35,866 nucleotides of DNA. It comes from a virus. Positions 2,326-35,866 of the stretch are shown here, one piece after another. The notes under the pieces are model-generated. The model ran no database searches and was not told the origin of the DNA. It saw only the letters and a list, made by a program, of their open reading frames with translations. The position numbers and the translations under genes are program-made. Positions within the stretch are counted from its first letter, which is position 1. Each line of letters begins with the position of its first letter. Location: positions 1 through 35,866 of the IMG/VR virus record IMGVR_UViG_3300025128_000153. The stretch is one strand, 5' to 3'.

Positions 2326-2760
2326 ATGTTTCGGATTAACTGGAGCAATTTGCCGCCCGATCCAGATGGCATGTCCTTGGCAGACGTAAAAAAGGCTTAT
2401 AGGCAACTCTATAGCCAACTGGAAGAAGCCAAGCGGCAGAAACGAGCGATTGCCTCGGTCTCTAAGGCTAACCGCAAAGACCTGCTGGCTTCACGCAGCG
2501 AGGCCAAGGCAGCAAAAGGCCAGCTTGTAACACTGAGCAAAAAGCAAAAGGCGCGTGACGAGGCCAATAAGGCAGGGTATTGGTCGGGCGCAGCGGCTAT
2601 AACTGTTACAATATTTTACGAGGCATTCAAGGTGGTCGGGTTTCCCGGCGGCAGGGCATGGGCCGAATTTTGGGGCCACGAAGCAGTCTACGGAGTAATC
2701 GTATGGACTATGACAATGACATTTGGCTGGGCGTATCGTGCGACTCATAGCGGGAGTTAG
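2326..2760 (+). CDS. Membrane protein with charged coiled-coil N-terminus, possible holin
   Basis: 144 aa. Residues 18-80 are charged and helical (many K, R, E, A). Two hydrophobic segments follow, at about 85-107 and 120-140, with a short aromatic loop between them. The C-terminus is short and polar. This topology, together with its place in a row of small membrane proteins after the tail fibre and before the terminator, suggests a holin or a membrane anchor of the lysis module. The ribosome site before the ATG is weak (TAGAG). The next gene starts 2 bases after its stop. Confidence 0.65.
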   Translation: MFRINWSNLPPDPDGMSLADVKKAYRQLYSQLEEAKRQKRAIASVSKANRKDLLASRSEAKAAKGQLVTLSKKQKARDEANKAGYWSGAAAITVTIFYEAFKVVGFPGGRAWAEFWGHEAVYGVIVWTMTMTFGWAYRATHSGS

Positions 2761-2762
2761 GC

Positions 2763-3146
2763 GTGGACGAAAAGGGCGCAGAGGAGGCTCTACGAAGTTT
2801 TGGGGCGCAGTCGGGACTCTCGCACTTGGTGGAGCAATATATATGGTTTTTCGTAGTCGGTTTCGCGCTGCTGTTTTTGAAGGACTCGGTGACGAATGCC
2901 TTGGCTGGGATAGCCATGTTTTTAGGGAGCAACTATGACGAAAACATGGTTTGTTACATCCATACCAACGGCACCCGCAGGCCCGCCCGCATAACCAAGA
3001 CCACTCTTTTTAGCACTTCATTCTACCTATATGATATAGACCACAAGAAAATTTGTGGTGGAACCCTCTTGACAGTTCCCAACTCAGAGCTTAAATCATT
3101 ACGAATCGAACGTCCATTAGACACCTTACAGGAGATAGGAAAGTAA
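2763..3146 (+). CDS. Mini MscS-like mechanosensitive-channel protein
   Basis: 127 aa, GTG start preceded by GGAG at good spacing inside the end of the upstream gene. A hydrophobic segment at about 25-39 leads into DSVTNALAGIAMFLG (41-55), which corresponds in pattern to the pore-lining TM3 of MscS. A small beta domain follows, containing FSTS (83-86) and the TVPNSEL stretch with Pro-Asn at 106-107. These match the positions of the FSTT and IPNGKI segments of MscS. The usual first two helices and the large cytoplasmic cage are absent, so this is only the pore helix plus beta domain. In the lysis region it may act as a pore or holin-like protein, or protect the host envelope during infection. 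The family call is from motif memory and the role is inferred. Confidence 0.68.
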   Translation: MDEKGAEEALRSFGAQSGLSHLVEQYIWFFVVGFALLFLKDSVTNALAGIAMFLGSNYDENMVCYIHTNGTRRPARITKTTLFSTSFYLYDIDHKKICGGTLLTVPNSELKSLRIERPLDTLQEIGK

Positions 3147-3147
3147 C

Positions 3148-3369
3148 ATGTCACAAGATGCACTGAAGCAGAAGATAGAGGAAATGGAAAAGCAGCAGGC
3201 CGAATCCTTGCAGATCAAGCAGGCGGCGTTACAAAAGATGAACGAAGCTGATGCCATGATTCAGCGGCAGCAGGGCTACCTCATAGCACTTCGTGAACTA
3301 CTGCAATCTCCCGACAATAACAAACTTGACCCAAATGAAGCACCCGAACCCGAAGAGGTTGAAATATGA
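3148..3369 (+). CDS. Small coiled-coil protein
   Basis: 73 aa, with AGGA upstream. Residues 3-55 form an almost uninterrupted charged helix with heptad spacing, rich in Q, K, E and M. The last 15 residues are acidic and proline-rich (DPNEAPEPEEVEI). There is no signal peptide, lipobox or membrane segment, so a spanin is unlikely. Its TGA overlaps the ATG of the next gene as ATGA, which implies translational coupling to the membrane protein that follows. Function unknown. Confidence 0.7.
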   Translation: MSQDALKQKIEEMEKQQAESLQIKQAALQKMNEADAMIQRQQGYLIALRELLQSPDNNKLDPNEAPEPEEVEI

Positions 3370-3527
3370 AAGCGTTACTAACTAAATTAGGCAGCCGCAA
3401 GCTGGGTGTAACAGCGGTGGTCGGTGCTGTAACAACGGCAGGCATCGTAGAGCTTACGTGGCCAATGGCGGCTGTAGCATGTGCTTATCTAATCGGGCAA
3501 GCTCTGGTCGATATTAGAGAAGGGTAA
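3366..3527 (+). CDS. Short holin-like membrane protein
   Basis: 53 aa, starting in the ATGA overlap with the upstream stop. A basic N-terminus (KALLTKLGSRK) is followed by a hydrophobic stretch at 13-29, a turn at ELTWP, and a second hydrophobic stretch at 34-47, ending in a charged DIREG tail. Two short membrane spans with a basic start fit a small class II holin or a similar last gene of a lysis cassette. Two TGTAACA sites 21 bp apart lie in the gene (3407, 3428), where they encode its two Val-Thr pairs. It is the last gene before the bidirectional terminator. Confidence 0.65.
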   Translation: MKALLTKLGSRKLGVTAVVGAVTTAGIVELTWPMAAVACAYLIGQALVDIREG

Positions 3528-3636: not shown

Positions 3637-3667
3637 CCCCCGCCTTCGGAAAGACCGAAGACGGGGG
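3637..3667. terminator. Bidirectional terminator between converging operons
   Basis: The hairpin pairs CCCCCG at 3637-3642 with CGGGGG at 3662-3667 and CTTCGG at 3644-3649 with CCGAAG at 3655-3660. There is one internal C/A mismatch and a 5-base loop AAAGA. It lies between the plus-strand gene ending at 3527 and the minus-strand gene ending at 3682, and each side has moderately T-rich flanks. A TGTTACA site sits just before it (3617-3623). Confidence 0.8.
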
Positions 3668-4875: not shown

Positions 4876-5473
4876 TTACCATTGCCTCCTTTCTTGTTTC
4901 GTATAATTTAGTAGCTACCGTTATAGCCTCGGCTATTGGATCCTCATAAGCCAAAACCATTGCCATTTCAATGGTCATCAAATCAATCGTATCCAACACA
5001 ATCTTGATATGTTCGGGCTTCTTGTAACCGATCCGCAGATGTGACAGTATTGCCCGCCTTACGGCGAAGCTCATCGCCTTCTCTTCTTCCATGACCTTAG
5101 ACCAGTTACGTATCAGTTGCTCGCTGTTGGCTGCTTCGCCATGAGCCTTGCGCTCTGCCTGCTGCGCTGCTTGACGCTGCTTACGCTCATGCTCTTGGCG
5201 GGGAGTCATCTGCCGCGCCATTTGTAACAACTGCCCCGGCTTGGGCCGCCACTCGCTGTTGCTGAGTAGCCAGTTGTCGATGGCGTTCATCCAAGCGTCA
5301 TCTGAAAGCCAGCCCAAGATGCGATACCACTGCCGCAACTGCGACTCATCGGGCTTCCAGTTATACTCGCTCATAATAACCTTAATGCCCGCCTTGAAAG
5401 CGTCTTGACTCAGTAAAGAACTTTTACTGGAAGTCGAGGTCGTCAACGAAGGCACCTGCATCGCTTGCGTCAT
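4853..5473 (-). CDS. Helicase-loader-like replication protein
   Basis: 206 aa, ATG at 5473 with GGAG upstream. It overlaps the preceding gene by 50 bases. Residues about 25-90 (an alpha-helical stretch with WYRILGWLSDDAWMNAID and later SEWRPKPGQLLQMA) resemble the G39P-like loader/inhibitor domain of phage replicative helicases: a helix with W or H plus LL, then an FPP/RPKP-like turn. The central section is a Q/R/A/E-rich coiled coil. The C-terminal third is helical. It sits directly downstream of the replication-type domain, as O/P-type gene pairs usually do. The assignment rests on pattern and context and is moderate. Confidence 0.55.
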   Translation of the reverse strand: MTQAMQVPSLTTSTSSKSSLLSQDAFKAGIKVIMSEYNWKPDESQLRQWYRILGWLSDDAWMNAIDNWLLSNSEWRPKPGQLLQMARQMTPRQEHERKQRQAAQQAERKAHGEAANSEQLIRNWSKVMEEEKAMSFAVRRAILSHLRIGYKKPEHIKIVLDTIDLMTIEMAMVLAYEDPIAEAITVATKLYETRKEAMVSGEEKVL

Positions 5474-6803
5474 CGGTGATCTCTCCTTTCATTTGGCCCT
5501 GCATGATCTCGTAACATTTCTTTTCGGGATACGCTTTTGACGGTTGTCGAAATTTAGTCGGGGATTGCATAAATCGCGGCACCCACGACTTGAGGGCAAA
5601 ATCACTGATCTCCCTAATCTCACTCCATTCCAATTTGTCGATGCGGTGGAGATCATCAAAAACTTTACACCATGCCATTTTGTATTTCGCCTTATAATCT
5701 AATTCGGGATGCTTTTTCCACTGGATGTGGAGCATATCAGCTTCGATAGAAGGCGAATAGGACTTGCGGTATTCCGTCATGTAATGCTTATGGCAGTAGC
5801 CGCCCCGCTTCGCTTCAGTATTGCAGCCTGCCTTCTTGCAAAAAGGCGATGATCCGTTTTTAGTAACAATCGGTGGCTTCGGAAGTTCACTACTCGTAGT
5901 TCTAAGTTCTAAGTTAGTACTAGTGTCTTGGTCTAAGTTACTAGTACTAGTACTAGTGTCTTCCTCTTGCAGGTTTGCTTCGACAATCGGTAACAATACT
6001 ATCTCCTTGTTACTAACTTTGTTACCATCCTCGTCTTCATTAGTAACAATTCTGGTGTCGATATTGACCTCTATGATTATTTTCATATGATTGCTTTCCT
6101 CTCGCTCCTTTATGAGTTGTGCTATGGTAGCTGTAATGTGTGGGATGCAGCTATTGCCTAATCCTCTAAGTCGGTCCACCCTATTGGAAACCCCATCAGA
6201 TATTCGGATAGGTGGGGGTTCAGCTTCCCACCCGCCAAGTAAGCCATGTCGTATAGTGTTTGCCCCAATACGATCTTCGATCCCTCCTTGCGGTTTGCTG
6301 TTATATTCCGGCCCTGCGATACGGTTGGGGTAGGATATGATCCACGTACGTGAGCGTGTGTGCGGGGCACCAACGTCTGCACCCGATATAATATTCCATT
6401 CTGAACTATACCCGATCTCGGCCAAAGACCCGCATAATCGGTCGAGTCCTCCATTGACGAGTCGGGATACGTTTTCCACGACAACGTATCGTGGTCGAAG
6501 CTCGCTAACGACTCGTAACATTTCCCACCACAAACCGGAGTTTTTTCCATCTAACCCTTGTCCTTTCGCATTTGCCATTGACAAATCTTGACATGGAAAC
6601 CCGCCAACTATAACATCGACAGGCTGTAATGTAGTGCTATCCACTTCGCGGATGTCATTGTAACGAGGAACATCGGGCCAATGCTTTGCCAGCACCGCTC
6701 GGCAATACGGGTCAAGTTCGACTTGCCATGCGATGTCAAATCCCGCAACGGTAAAGCCCAAATCAAAGCCACCAATCCCCGAAAACAATGACCCTACTCG
6801 CAT
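5424..6803 (-). CDS. Dcm-family cytosine-C5 methyltransferase fused to a replication-type protein
   Basis: 459 aa. Residues 1-237 are a compact C5-cytosine methyltransferase. Motif I is SLFSGIGGFDLG (5-16), the catalytic GGFPCQDLS has Cys71, ENV is at 110-112, PHTRSRTW is at 147-154, and GLGNS is at 214-218. The target-recognition segment is short (about 155-210). The frame then runs without a stop through KEREESNH into Met240. From there a different protein begins: an acidic/Thr-Ser-rich linker (281-305), a C-x4-C-x9-C-x2-H finger (C322, C327, C337, H340), and a helical domain like a replication initiator. Met240 (6086) has GAGG upstream and could also start a separate product. The fusion could be real, or could come from a lost stop. 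Confidence 0.82.
   Translation of the reverse strand: MRVGSLFSGIGGFDLGFTVAGFDIAWQVELDPYCRAVLAKHWPDVPRYNDIREVDSTTLQPVDVIVGGFPCQDLSMANAKGQGLDGKNSGLWWEMLRVVSELRPRYVVVENVSRLVNGGLDRLCGSLAEIGYSSEWNIISGADVGAPHTRSRTWIISYPNRIAGPEYNSKPQGGIEDRIGANTIRHGLLGGWEAEPPPIRISDGVSNRVDRLRGLGNSCIPHITATIAQLIKEREESNHMKIIIEVNIDTRIVTNEDEDGNKVSNKEIVLLPIVEANLQEEDTSTSTSNLDQDTSTNLELRTTSSELPKPPIVTKNGSSPFCKKAGCNTEAKRGGYCHKHYMTEYRKSYSPSIEADMLHIQWKKHPELDYKAKYKMAWCKVFDDLHRIDKLEWSEIREISDFALKSWVPRFMQSPTKFRQPSKAYPEKKCYEIMQGQMKGEITDDASDAGAFVDDLDFQ
6158..6550 (-). CDS. Candidate overprinted +1-frame ORF inside the methyltransferase gene
   Basis: 130 aa, entirely inside the methyltransferase coding region but one base out of frame. 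Its translation carries motifs I know from a widespread family of phage proteins found near Dcm genes: LSWKTY, WPRSG-x3-NG-x2-Y, LVPRT followed by GSYPTPT, and a C-terminal KLNP then YLMGFPIGWTDLE. The same bases read in the main frame give methyltransferase motifs: LAEIGYSSEW, VGAPHTRSRTW and DGVSNRVDRL. Both frames therefore look meaningful. The ATG directly follows a TAG, and AAGG lies upstream. Whether it is translated here is unproven; it may instead reflect an ancient frame relationship between two families. Confidence 0.4.
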   Translation of the reverse strand: MEKTPVCGGKCYESLASFDHDTLSWKTYPDSSMEDSTDYAGLWPRSGIVQNGILYRVQTLVPRTHAHVRGSYPTPTVSQGRNITANRKEGSKIVLGQTLYDMAYLAGGKLNPHLSEYLMGFPIGWTDLED

Positions 6804-13538: not shown

Positions 13539-13952
13539 ATGGTTACTTCGTTTACAGAAGACAAGTTCAATAGCGATCAACGCTGGCCTTCGTTTACTTT
13601 TCGGGAGTTGAAGTGTTCCCATACTGGAGCTTGCGTCATGGACGAGGCTTTCTTGGACCGCTTGCAGGCTCTTCGTAACAAGGTGGGGCCGTTGGTTATT
13701 AGTTCGGGGTATCGTTCGGTGGCGCATCCAGTAGAGGTTGTCAAGGGTAAGCCCGGCACTCATACGATGGGTCGAGCGGTGGATGTCAGTTGTCGGGGCG
13801 AGAAGGCGGTTGAGGTGTTGAAGTATGCTTTGCAGTTAGGGTTTACGGGTATTGGTGTAAAGCAACATGGCAAGGAAGGTCGGTTCTTGCATCTGGATGA
13901 CCTTACCAGTGATTCGTATCATGGGCCTCGGCCTACGATCTGGAGTTACTAA
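13539..13952 (+). CDS. Peptidase M15-type endolysin (D-Ala-D-Ala/L-Ala-D-Glu peptidase family)
   Basis: 137 aa, typical for phage M15 (VanY/Peptidase_M15_3-like) enzymes that cut peptidoglycan stem peptides and lyse the host. The start segment FTFRELKCSHTG is family-like. SGYRS (56-60) and the zinc ligands H75 and D82 (in THTMGRAVDV) and H118 (in FLHLD) are all present. There is no signal peptide, so a holin or other pore is needed for release. The gene is separate from the membrane-protein cluster at 2.3-3.5 kb and heads the late operon directly under the predicted promoter. I see no ribosome site before the ATG, consistent with a leaderless message. Confidence 0.85.
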   Translation: MVTSFTEDKFNSDQRWPSFTFRELKCSHTGACVMDEAFLDRLQALRNKVGPLVISSGYRSVAHPVEVVKGKPGTHTMGRAVDVSCRGEKAVEVLKYALQLGFTGIGVKQHGKEGRFLHLDDLTSDSYHGPRPTIWSY

Positions 13953-33471: not shown

Positions 33472-35866
33472 ATGGGAACTATAAGCCGCATTACGACATT
33501 CTCAACGGGCGATACGCTAACAGCGAGCGACCTCAATGGTGAGTTTGATAACATAATATCTACTGCCAATGGCAGCATAAACGCCGATAACTTGGGTGTT
33601 ACAGCCGGGCAGGCCAGTGCCTCAAAGGCTATTGTCCTTGATGCCAACAAAGATTTTGCCAATGTAACAACCTCCAACCAGATCCGTAACCTAACCATTA
33701 GCGGATCACTCAAAATAGGCACTACATTCTTGCCAGATGCGGCAGGCGGTGCTGATTTGGGGTCTACCTCGCTGGAATGGGGGGATGTTTACGTAGCTGA
33801 TGACAAATACCTGTATATGGGGTCCGATCAAAACATCAAGATCGGCTACGATGAAACGACCACTGACTCCCTTGCTATTTCGGCCATTGAAGGGGCAGCG
33901 TTGGCCATTACCCTTCGTGCTGACGAAGGCGATGACGCAGGCGATGAGTGGAAGCTGAATGTAGCCGATGGTGGTGTAGTAACATTTGGTAACGATATAG
34001 CTTCCGCAGGCACTTTTGTTACACACCTAACACTCACCCCCCATGCTACCGTAGCCAGTTCAACGCTGGCATTGGCGGGTGGCTTAACCGTTGCTGGGGC
34101 TACTCAAGCCAACAGCACTGTTACAGTTGGGGTTGATGACCAAGGCTACGATGTCAAGCTCTTCGGTGACACGGCTTCGGCATATCTGATGTGGGACACT
34201 TCAGCGGACAAGCTACTAACCGCTGGTGGTGCAACTATAGATATAGTTAAAGACAAGCTGTTGATTGGCGGGGTAGCTGTAACAACTACTGCTGCCGAGC
34301 TTAATTTGCTCGATACAGCTTCTGCTGGGACGGTTGTAGCCTCAAAAGCGGTAGTCGTAGATAGCAATAAAGATATTGCCTCCTTCCGCAATGTTACATT
34401 GACGGGCGAACTGGATGCTGCCACAGGCGATTTTAGTGGCGATGTCGATGTTGACGGGACGCTTGAAGCCGATGCAATTACGCTTGGCGGGACGGCCCTT
34501 GGCTCCCTCTACTCTCCTATTGCTGGCAGTAGTAGCATTACTACAGTTGGCACGATAGGCACGGGCACATGGCAGGGCACTGCGGTAGCTTTAGCCTATG
34601 GCGGCACAGGGCTTGTAGGTGCAACAGATGGCAAGATCGTAATAGCGGACGGTAGCGGTGCGCCTGTTCTATTGGATGTAGGCTCAAGCACTGCCATAAC
34701 CGTATTAGGGACGGTAGCCACAGGCACGTGGCAGGGCACCGCAGTAGCCTCGGCCTACCTTGATGCCGACACCGCGCACCTATCCACTACGCAGACCTTT
34801 TCCGGTGCCAAAACCTTCTCGGCGGCTGCTCAATTTTCTAATACTGTAACAGTTGGCGTAGATGACACGGGTTACGATGTCCAATTCTTCGGTGCAACCA
34901 GTGGGTCGAGCCTGTTATGGGACGAGTCGGCTGATGACTTGATCCTAACCAATGCCGGGCTGGCTGTAGGCAGCGATGCAACGGGTGATGTCTACTACCG
35001 AGATGCTAACGGCTTCTTGGCGCGGCTCGCCATAGGGTCCGATGGGCAGGTACTCACCAGCACTGGCACCCTGCCTAATTGGGAGGCCGCTGGAGGAGGG
35101 AGTGGTGGTGATTTTAGTGGTCCCGGCAGCAGCACGGATAATGCTGTATTAAAATTCGATGGCACTGGGGGCAAGACCGGCCAGAACTCAGGCATCATCA
35201 TTGACGATAGCAACAACATCACAGGCGCAGCCAATGTAACACTGAGCGGTGAACTGGATGCGGCTACGGGCGATTTCAGCGGCGATGTAAATGTGGCTGG
35301 CGAGGTGCAAACGGCGAGTATCGGCTACACTGATGGCGATAATGCGATAACGATAGCGGATGGTGGCGGTGTCACGACCTCCGGCGCGTTAACTGTGGGG
35401 GGTAGTCAGGTCATTACGGGACAAAGCATCGGGGTGGGCGAAACGCCATCAACGTGGGCATCGGCGTTCGATTTCGTTCAGATCGGCGGCACACTGGCCC
35501 TCGCATCACAGCCGGGAGTGCAAGCCTCGCAAGCCGCATATATTGTTCAAAACGCGCATTACGATAGTGATGGCTCGTGGGAATATCAAGCGACAGACGA
35601 GGCTTCGCGCATCGGAATGTCATCAGCCAATATTACGTTTGATAACGCCGCCAGCGGCACTGCGGGTAATGATATTACATGGTCCGAGCGTATGCGGATT
35701 TTGGCTGGCGGTGGCCTCACATTCAACGGCGATACTGCGGCGGCGAACGCGTTGGATGACTACGAAGAAGGTACTTGGACTCCAGTTTGGAAATTCGGCG
35801 GCACAGGCGGCACAGCGAACACACAGACAGACAATGTTGGGTGGTATACTAAAATCGGCAACATGG
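33472..35866 (+). CDS. Tail fibre protein, N-terminal part (runs off the window end; continues at base 1)
   Basis: ATG at 33472, open to the last base of the window (798 codons). It begins SRITTFSTGDTLTASDLNGEFDNII, which is the conserved N-terminal attachment segment of many phage fibre and spike proteins. It continues with LGSTSLEWGDVYVADD, a first VGVDD-x-GYDV-x2-FG module (about 219), and TTTAAELNLLDTASAGTV repeats. From 34193 it duplicates the start of the window, with one amino-acid difference (Leu here, Phe at 114-116). The predicted whole protein is 895 aa. It binds the tail with its N-terminus and the host surface with its C-terminus. Confidence 0.88.
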   Translation, partial: MGTISRITTFSTGDTLTASDLNGEFDNIISTANGSINADNLGVTAGQASASKAIVLDANKDFANVTTSNQIRNLTISGSLKIGTTFLPDAAGGADLGSTSLEWGDVYVADDKYLYMGSDQNIKIGYDETTTDSLAISAIEGAALAITLRADEGDDAGDEWKLNVADGGVVTFGNDIASAGTFVTHLTLTPHATVASSTLALAGGLTVAGATQANSTVTVGVDDQGYDVKLFGDTASAYLMWDTSADKLLTAGGATIDIVKDKLLIGGVAVTTTAAELNLLDTASAGTVVASKAVVVDSNKDIASFRNVTLTGELDAATGDFSGDVDVDGTLEADAITLGGTALGSLYSPIAGSSSITTVGTIGTGTWQGTAVALAYGGTGLVGATDGKIVIADGSGAPVLLDVGSSTAITVLGTVATGTWQGTAVASAYLDADTAHLSTTQTFSGAKTFSAAAQFSNTVTVGVDDTGYDVQFFGATSGSSLLWDESADDLILTNAGLAVGSDATGDVYYRDANGFLARLAIGSDGQVLTSTGTLPNWEAAGGGSGGDFSGPGSSTDNAVLKFDGTGGKTGQNSGIIIDDSNNITGAANVTLSGELDAATGDFSGDVNVAGEVQTASIGYTDGDNAITIADGGGVTTSGALTVGGSQVITGQSIGVGETPSTWASAFDFVQIGGTLALASQPGVQASQAAYIVQNAHYDSDGSWEYQATDEASRIGMSSANITFDNAASGTAGNDITWSERMRILAGGGLTFNGDTAAANALDDYEEGTWTPVWKFGGTGGTANTQTDNVGWYTKIGNM
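34193..35866. repeat. Terminal direct repeat, copy 2 (genome self-overlap)
   Basis: Second copy of the 1,674-bp repeat. It runs to the last base of the window in the same reading frame as copy 1. Joining 34192 to base 1 restores one uninterrupted tail-fibre gene. Confidence 0.93.

Follow-up and report, generated by a model that had tools for sequence, protein, structure and literature searches.

Membership of the MscS superfamily of mechanosensitive channels is defined by homology over the pore helix and the upper vestibule, i.e., the β-domain (PMC4560390). A miniature member, TcMscS of Trypanosoma cruzi, has lost TM1 and the cage and kept TM2, and is still a mechanosensitive channel (PMC12334622). 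Viral MscL genes have been reported from salinity gradients (PMC13288924), and gp51 of phage PANV1 has been noted for its matches to MscS (PMC9239159). No MscS-like lysis protein of a phage was found in the open-access literature searched.

The locus described here lies in a viral DNA stretch of 35,866 nucleotides, hereafter the window, the ends of which (1-1674 and 34193-35866) are identical at 1,660 of 1,674 positions. This match suggests that the genome, though classed as linear, is probably circularly permuted and near-complete at about 34.2 kb, in which case the late genes would run on into the tail fibre gene and the cassette at 2326-3527; the 14 mismatches may represent strain variation or assembly error. 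The endolysin, terminase, and structural genes all lie on the plus strand, and the cassette is followed by a strong hairpin and then by minus-strand genes that run toward it. The genome encodes terminase, major head, and internal-virion-type proteins, and we infer a short-tailed phage. The features to which the following text refers are:

66-1967: tail fibre gene, before the cassette
2326-2760, plus strand: partner gene, 144 aa, a coiled coil and then two hydrophobic segments (synteny, alignment)
2763-3146, plus strand: MscS-like gene, 127 aa, GTG start (open reading frame and translation, relatives, dN/dS)
2817-2927, plus strand: long helix, residues 19-55, the single predicted membrane helix (AlphaFold models, hhalign register, residue table)
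2949-3110, plus strand: MscS-type β-domain, residues 63-116, PN helix included (fold, hhalign, PF00924 matches of relatives)
3075-3092, plus strand: PN-type motif VPNSEL, residues 105-110 (family alignment)
3148-3369, plus strand: soluble coiled-coil protein, 73 aa (open reading frame, synteny)
3366-3527, plus strand: small holin-like membrane protein, 53 aa (PHROG 9987 holin, E 0.0083; homologue in contig L149, E 7.6e-4)
3637-3667: 13-pair hairpin between the plus-strand cassette and the convergent minus-strand genes, scoring as a minus-strand terminator
13539-13952, plus strand: peptidase-type endolysin, ahead of the terminase genes (PHROG 894, E 1.6e-25)

Elsewhere in the window, the product of the minus-strand gene at 5424-6803 consists of two unrelated halves: residues 1-238 form a DNA methyltransferase domain (PHROG 363, E 6.5e-69), and the C-terminal half covers about 220 aa. 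In a related contig, a tail-fibre-type gene and an assembly-type gene occur twice in tandem as diverged copies (L013:540-3287).

The open reading frame at 2763-3146 is present as the preliminary description had reported, and its translation contains the strings quoted there (DSVTNALAGIAMFLG, FSTS, and TVPNSEL). It begins 2 nt past the stop of the upstream gene, with GGGAG immediately 5' of its start. In the comparison with its nearest relative (L048), codon positions 1, 2, and 3 differ at 19, 6, and 51 sites, respectively, and dN is 0.085 against a dS of 1.18 (dN/dS ~0.07); thus, the reading frame encodes a protein, and purifying selection acts on it. Its status as a gene is further upheld by the tight spacing and by relatives on 57 other uncultured viral contigs, 37 of which were recovered in IMG/VR scans with successive alignments and 20 more, some highly diverged, in scans with the neighboring genes. 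The family comprises 47 distinct proteins including that of the window, mostly of 121-146 aa (a few reach 161 aa if the longest reading frame is used), and a full-length MscS is not among them. A search of 50,697 phage records yielded no relative, and neither did one of 84,980 bacterial and archaeal species genomes with the short patterns tried. The 127-aa protein itself matches nothing above chance in Pfam, PHROGs, NCBIfam, PADLOC, or PDB sequences, and a PF00924 search of eleven related viral records returned zero matches. The proteins constitute a conserved phage gene family without a confident Pfam or PHROG match.

The kinship with MscS emerges from profile comparison. Aligned by hhalign with 12 diverse MscS proteins, the family gives E values of 6.5e-5 with 16 sequences, 1.1e-5 with 23, and 2e-6 with 19 more diverse ones, the last covering MscS residues 109-175 at a profile identity of about 22%; the alignments of all three sets span approximately TM3b to the PN motif. 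The scores of 44-46 compare with a maximum of 24.2 over 160 column shuffles, 17 for reversed MscS, and about 12 for neighboring gene families against MscS; an earlier set of controls is in accord. Among individual relatives, PF00924 (MS_channel_2nd) is the top Pfam family for L094 (E 0.013), L182 (0.013), and L111 (0.027) and the second-ranked one for L144 (E 0.19), while the remaining relatives have no match to it; all of these matches lie below the curated cut-off of 20.2 bits, the best reaching 16 bits. When 2,537 open reading frames are searched with an HMM of 12 MscS core sequences, the family ranks near the top, but with an E value of only 0.12, which is weak support when taken alone.

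The predicted fold agrees with the profiles. The AlphaFold models, both of moderate confidence (pLDDT 67-70, pTM 0.41-0.45), contain a short helix, a long helix (residues 19-54/55), four strands, and the PN helix. The structural matches of the first model are ambiguous, generic tudor/SH3 barrels being intermixed with MscS, whereas the top 30 rows for the second model (23 sequences) are all MscS-family chains. These include 7raz_A (Z 7.1, 90 residues, 3.1 Å, model residues 19-120 on MscS 91-180), YbiO 9go3_A (Z 7.0, 87 residues, 3.0 Å), and 3t9n_D (Z 6.8, 87 residues, 3.0 Å), where Z values below 8 are not decisive by themselves; TcMscS (9bgq) also occurs among the matches. The register of the fold alignment, with N45 on N117 of MscS, matches that of the sequence-profile alignment. 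The kinship of the phage protein to MscS over TM3b and the β-domain is thus well supported. Measured against the superfamily definition, the homology extends over MscS residues 109-175 in the profile and 91-180 in the fold, although it is remote and the sequence of TM3a is not conserved. The idea of a stripped-down MscS put forward in the preliminary description is borne out by the shuffle-controlled comparison, the weak PF00924 matches of divergent relatives, and the fold; the expected β-domain appears in the model with MscS chains as top matches, and the similarity to MscS profiles does reach the PN-motif region.

What has been retained and what has been lost can be read from the family alignment. 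The family keeps the TM3b helix, the β-domain, and most of the PN motif, and lacks TM1, TM2, and the cytoplasmic cage. Residues 41-55 of the long helix correspond to TM3b, with G49 at the position of G121; the N117 equivalent is present in 18/19 aligned sequences, the G121 equivalent in 19/19, and the L109 equivalent is invariant. In VPNSEL, the N is invariant across the family and the P variable. The counterpart of TM3a is a different matter: Gly, Ala, and Ser make up 19% of it versus 44% in MscS, and Phe, Trp, and Tyr 26% versus 7%, the MscS percentages coming from only four alignment rows that cover TM3a. The L105 equivalent is mostly Gly or Ala; hence, a Gly/Ala-packed TM3a with the L105/L109 hydrophobic gate is not found, even though the L109 position is retained. 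The earlier statement that only the pore helix and β-domain remain accordingly holds for TM3b and the β-domain, but not for the aromatic-rich upper pore helix. In all 19 sequences, the N-terminal segment carries 0-3 Lys/Arg with a net charge of -2 to -6, and the part following the helix carries 7-11 Lys/Arg, a distribution that predicts an N-out/C-in topology like that of MscS TM3.

In relation to E. coli MscS (PF00924), the phage protein therefore shares the TM3b signature N..AG, the β-domain with its predicted cytoplasmic location, and the PN-type motif, with fold and register in agreement, and differs in its missing helices and cage, its TM3a chemistry, and its sub-threshold Pfam scores. 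Like TcMscS, it combines a short N-terminal helix, TM3, and a β-domain without TM1 or cage; however, TcMscS is a proven heptameric mechanosensitive channel that retains TM2, whereas in the phage family this helix is gone as well and any channel activity is putative. PANV1 gp51 resembles it, by description only, in being an MscS-like protein of a phage and in that its membrane helix is doubtful, but no lysis context has been reported for gp51 (PMC9239159). With the small phage holins of PHROG 9987, it has in common that it is a small membrane protein of the same cassette, yet the match to that group belongs to its 53-aa neighbor.

The surroundings of the gene had been described as a lysis region in which it lies between two small membrane proteins. 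Upstream this is so; the protein immediately downstream has no hydrophobic segment, and the second membrane protein, the holin-like one, is encoded by the second gene downstream. The holin-like protein likewise agrees with a lysis region, but the endolysin gene lies elsewhere, about 10 kb away in the window. The partner gene accompanies the MscS-like gene on nearly every contig, on either side, and on a rearranged 80-kb contig it is found 3 kb away on the opposite strand. The exceptions are L134, a contig-edge case, and L140, in which a one-helix coiled-coil protein substitutes for the partner; in L052, the partner is truncated at the edge. The replacement in L140 (2906-3235, directly upstream of the MscS-like gene) is a 109-aa protein that combines a single hydrophobic helix at the N-terminus with a coiled coil, an i-spanin-like layout. 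A split MscS, with the partner supplying TM1-TM2, was considered and rejected, as there is no profile similarity and the implied helix orientation misfits. On the 80-kb contig, a gene with a MotA/TolQ/ExbB match (L001:8608-9147, minus strand, PF01618, E 6.9e-6) adjoins the partner gene. Very basic small proteins of 47-95 aa recur by the cassette (L003:8502-8947, L134:35-178, L101:4395-4827), and the 52-aa one of L003 matches PHROG 31838, of unknown function.

Related phages fill the slot after the partner in different ways. Of 66 contigs with the partner gene, 47 also carry the MscS-like gene in the DNA covered, a biased sample, since the partner profile derives from contigs with the MscS-like gene. 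In L115, L127, L143, L145, and L149, the slot is occupied by a Gly-rich one-helix coiled-coil protein of 73-93 aa with no PHROG match among those searched; at L115:4437-4673, L149:3472-3708, and L127:4375-4635, it has 78-86 aa with the coiled coil at the C-terminus. In L103, L105, L113, L118, L120, L126, and L130, the slot holds a small membrane-type protein of 76-80 aa (e.g., L103:4430-4663, L120:4409-4648, L130:4409-4639), with no Pfam or PHROG match among those searched, and neither the MscS-like gene nor the gene for the 53-aa holin-like protein is present on these contigs. The slot is empty in L075 and L136. The same cassette with the holin-like gene, but without the MscS-like gene, is present in L136, L145, and L149. 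It is chiefly this interchange of slot proteins that speaks for an accessory function at the membrane or in lysis and against the role of sole holin.

We propose that the protein is an MscS-derived late membrane protein, an accessory of the membrane/lysis cassette that modulates membrane permeability or lysis, a reading to which we assign a probability of about 0.45. It builds on the observed homology, gene position, and partner association and on the predicted orientation. The single membrane helix would enter from the periplasm, pass through the TM3b elbow, and lead into the cytoplasmic β-domain, through which the protein would probably assemble into a ring as MscS does. The cassette would be expressed late, at the end of the structural genes, and the protein may act together with the coiled-coil/two-helix partner and the small holin-like protein, e.g., through a small leak in the inner membrane that it makes or tunes at or before lysis. 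Besides the MscS kinship and the charge bias, the constant partner, the cassette position, the holin-like neighbor, and the filling of the slot by other small membrane-type proteins count in favor of this reading; the lack of a family match for the protein's own sequence, the empty PF00924 search of the eleven related records, the sub-threshold Pfam scores of relatives, the moderate models with Z below 8, and the distance of the endolysin gene count against it. With the packing and gate features of TM3a gone, a pore formed by the protein is not assured. The preliminary suggestion of a holin-type pore is possible in the form of a holin-type or lysis-modulating accessory; the bolder version, in which the core of MscS has evolved in a phage lineage into a holin-type single-helix ring pore for lysis with a dedicated coiled-coil membrane partner, is offered tentatively and is rather unlikely.

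The loss of pore-lining chemistry alongside a retained β-domain and TM3b, together with the constancy of the coiled-coil partner, would also suit a non-conducting, membrane-anchored scaffold, regulator, or exclusion factor that uses the β-domain ring, e.g., to block superinfection or to act on host MscS. We consider this unlikely, as the gene has a late-type position rather than one in an early or lysogeny region, and the low identity to MscS makes mixed rings with the host channel improbable. A genuine tension-gated mini-channel, a smaller relative of TcMscS keeping the infected cell with its weakened wall from lysing osmotically too early, draws on the MscS kinship and on the mechanosensitivity of TcMscS, which has just TM2, TM3, and the β-domain (PMC12334622). 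Yet, the TM2 retained there is missing here, and gating by tension in the manner of MscS is not favored because TM1/TM2, the TM3a packing, and the gate residues are absent, L105 included, so that such a valve appears improbable. A holin proper, the helices of which make the lethal hole releasing the endolysin, would be in keeping with a small one-helix protein sharing its cassette with a holin-like gene, and in L001 the MscS-like gene has an SLT-domain gene on one side and a GTA-type holin on the other. However, neither the protein nor its relatives match any holin family in Pfam or PHROGs, and the role of sole holin is not favored because of the related phages that have the same cassette without the gene; we rate it as a poor prospect. 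Least credible by far is a common SH3/tudor-like barrel on a membrane anchor with a convergent likeness to MscS, for although tudor, PWWP, and SH3-like barrels score alike on the barrel of the first model and the 127-aa protein has no family match, the shuffle-controlled profile match keeps its register across TM3b and the PN motif, divergent relatives match the Pfam β-domain, and the MscS alignments of the second model reach into the helix.

The phage protein, proposed here as an MscS-derived accessory of the late cassette, is smaller than the miniature TcMscS by one membrane helix. Should it conduct, it would reveal how small a part of MscS suffices for a pore, and if it is active in lysis, it would connect mechanosensitive channels with phage lysis proteins.
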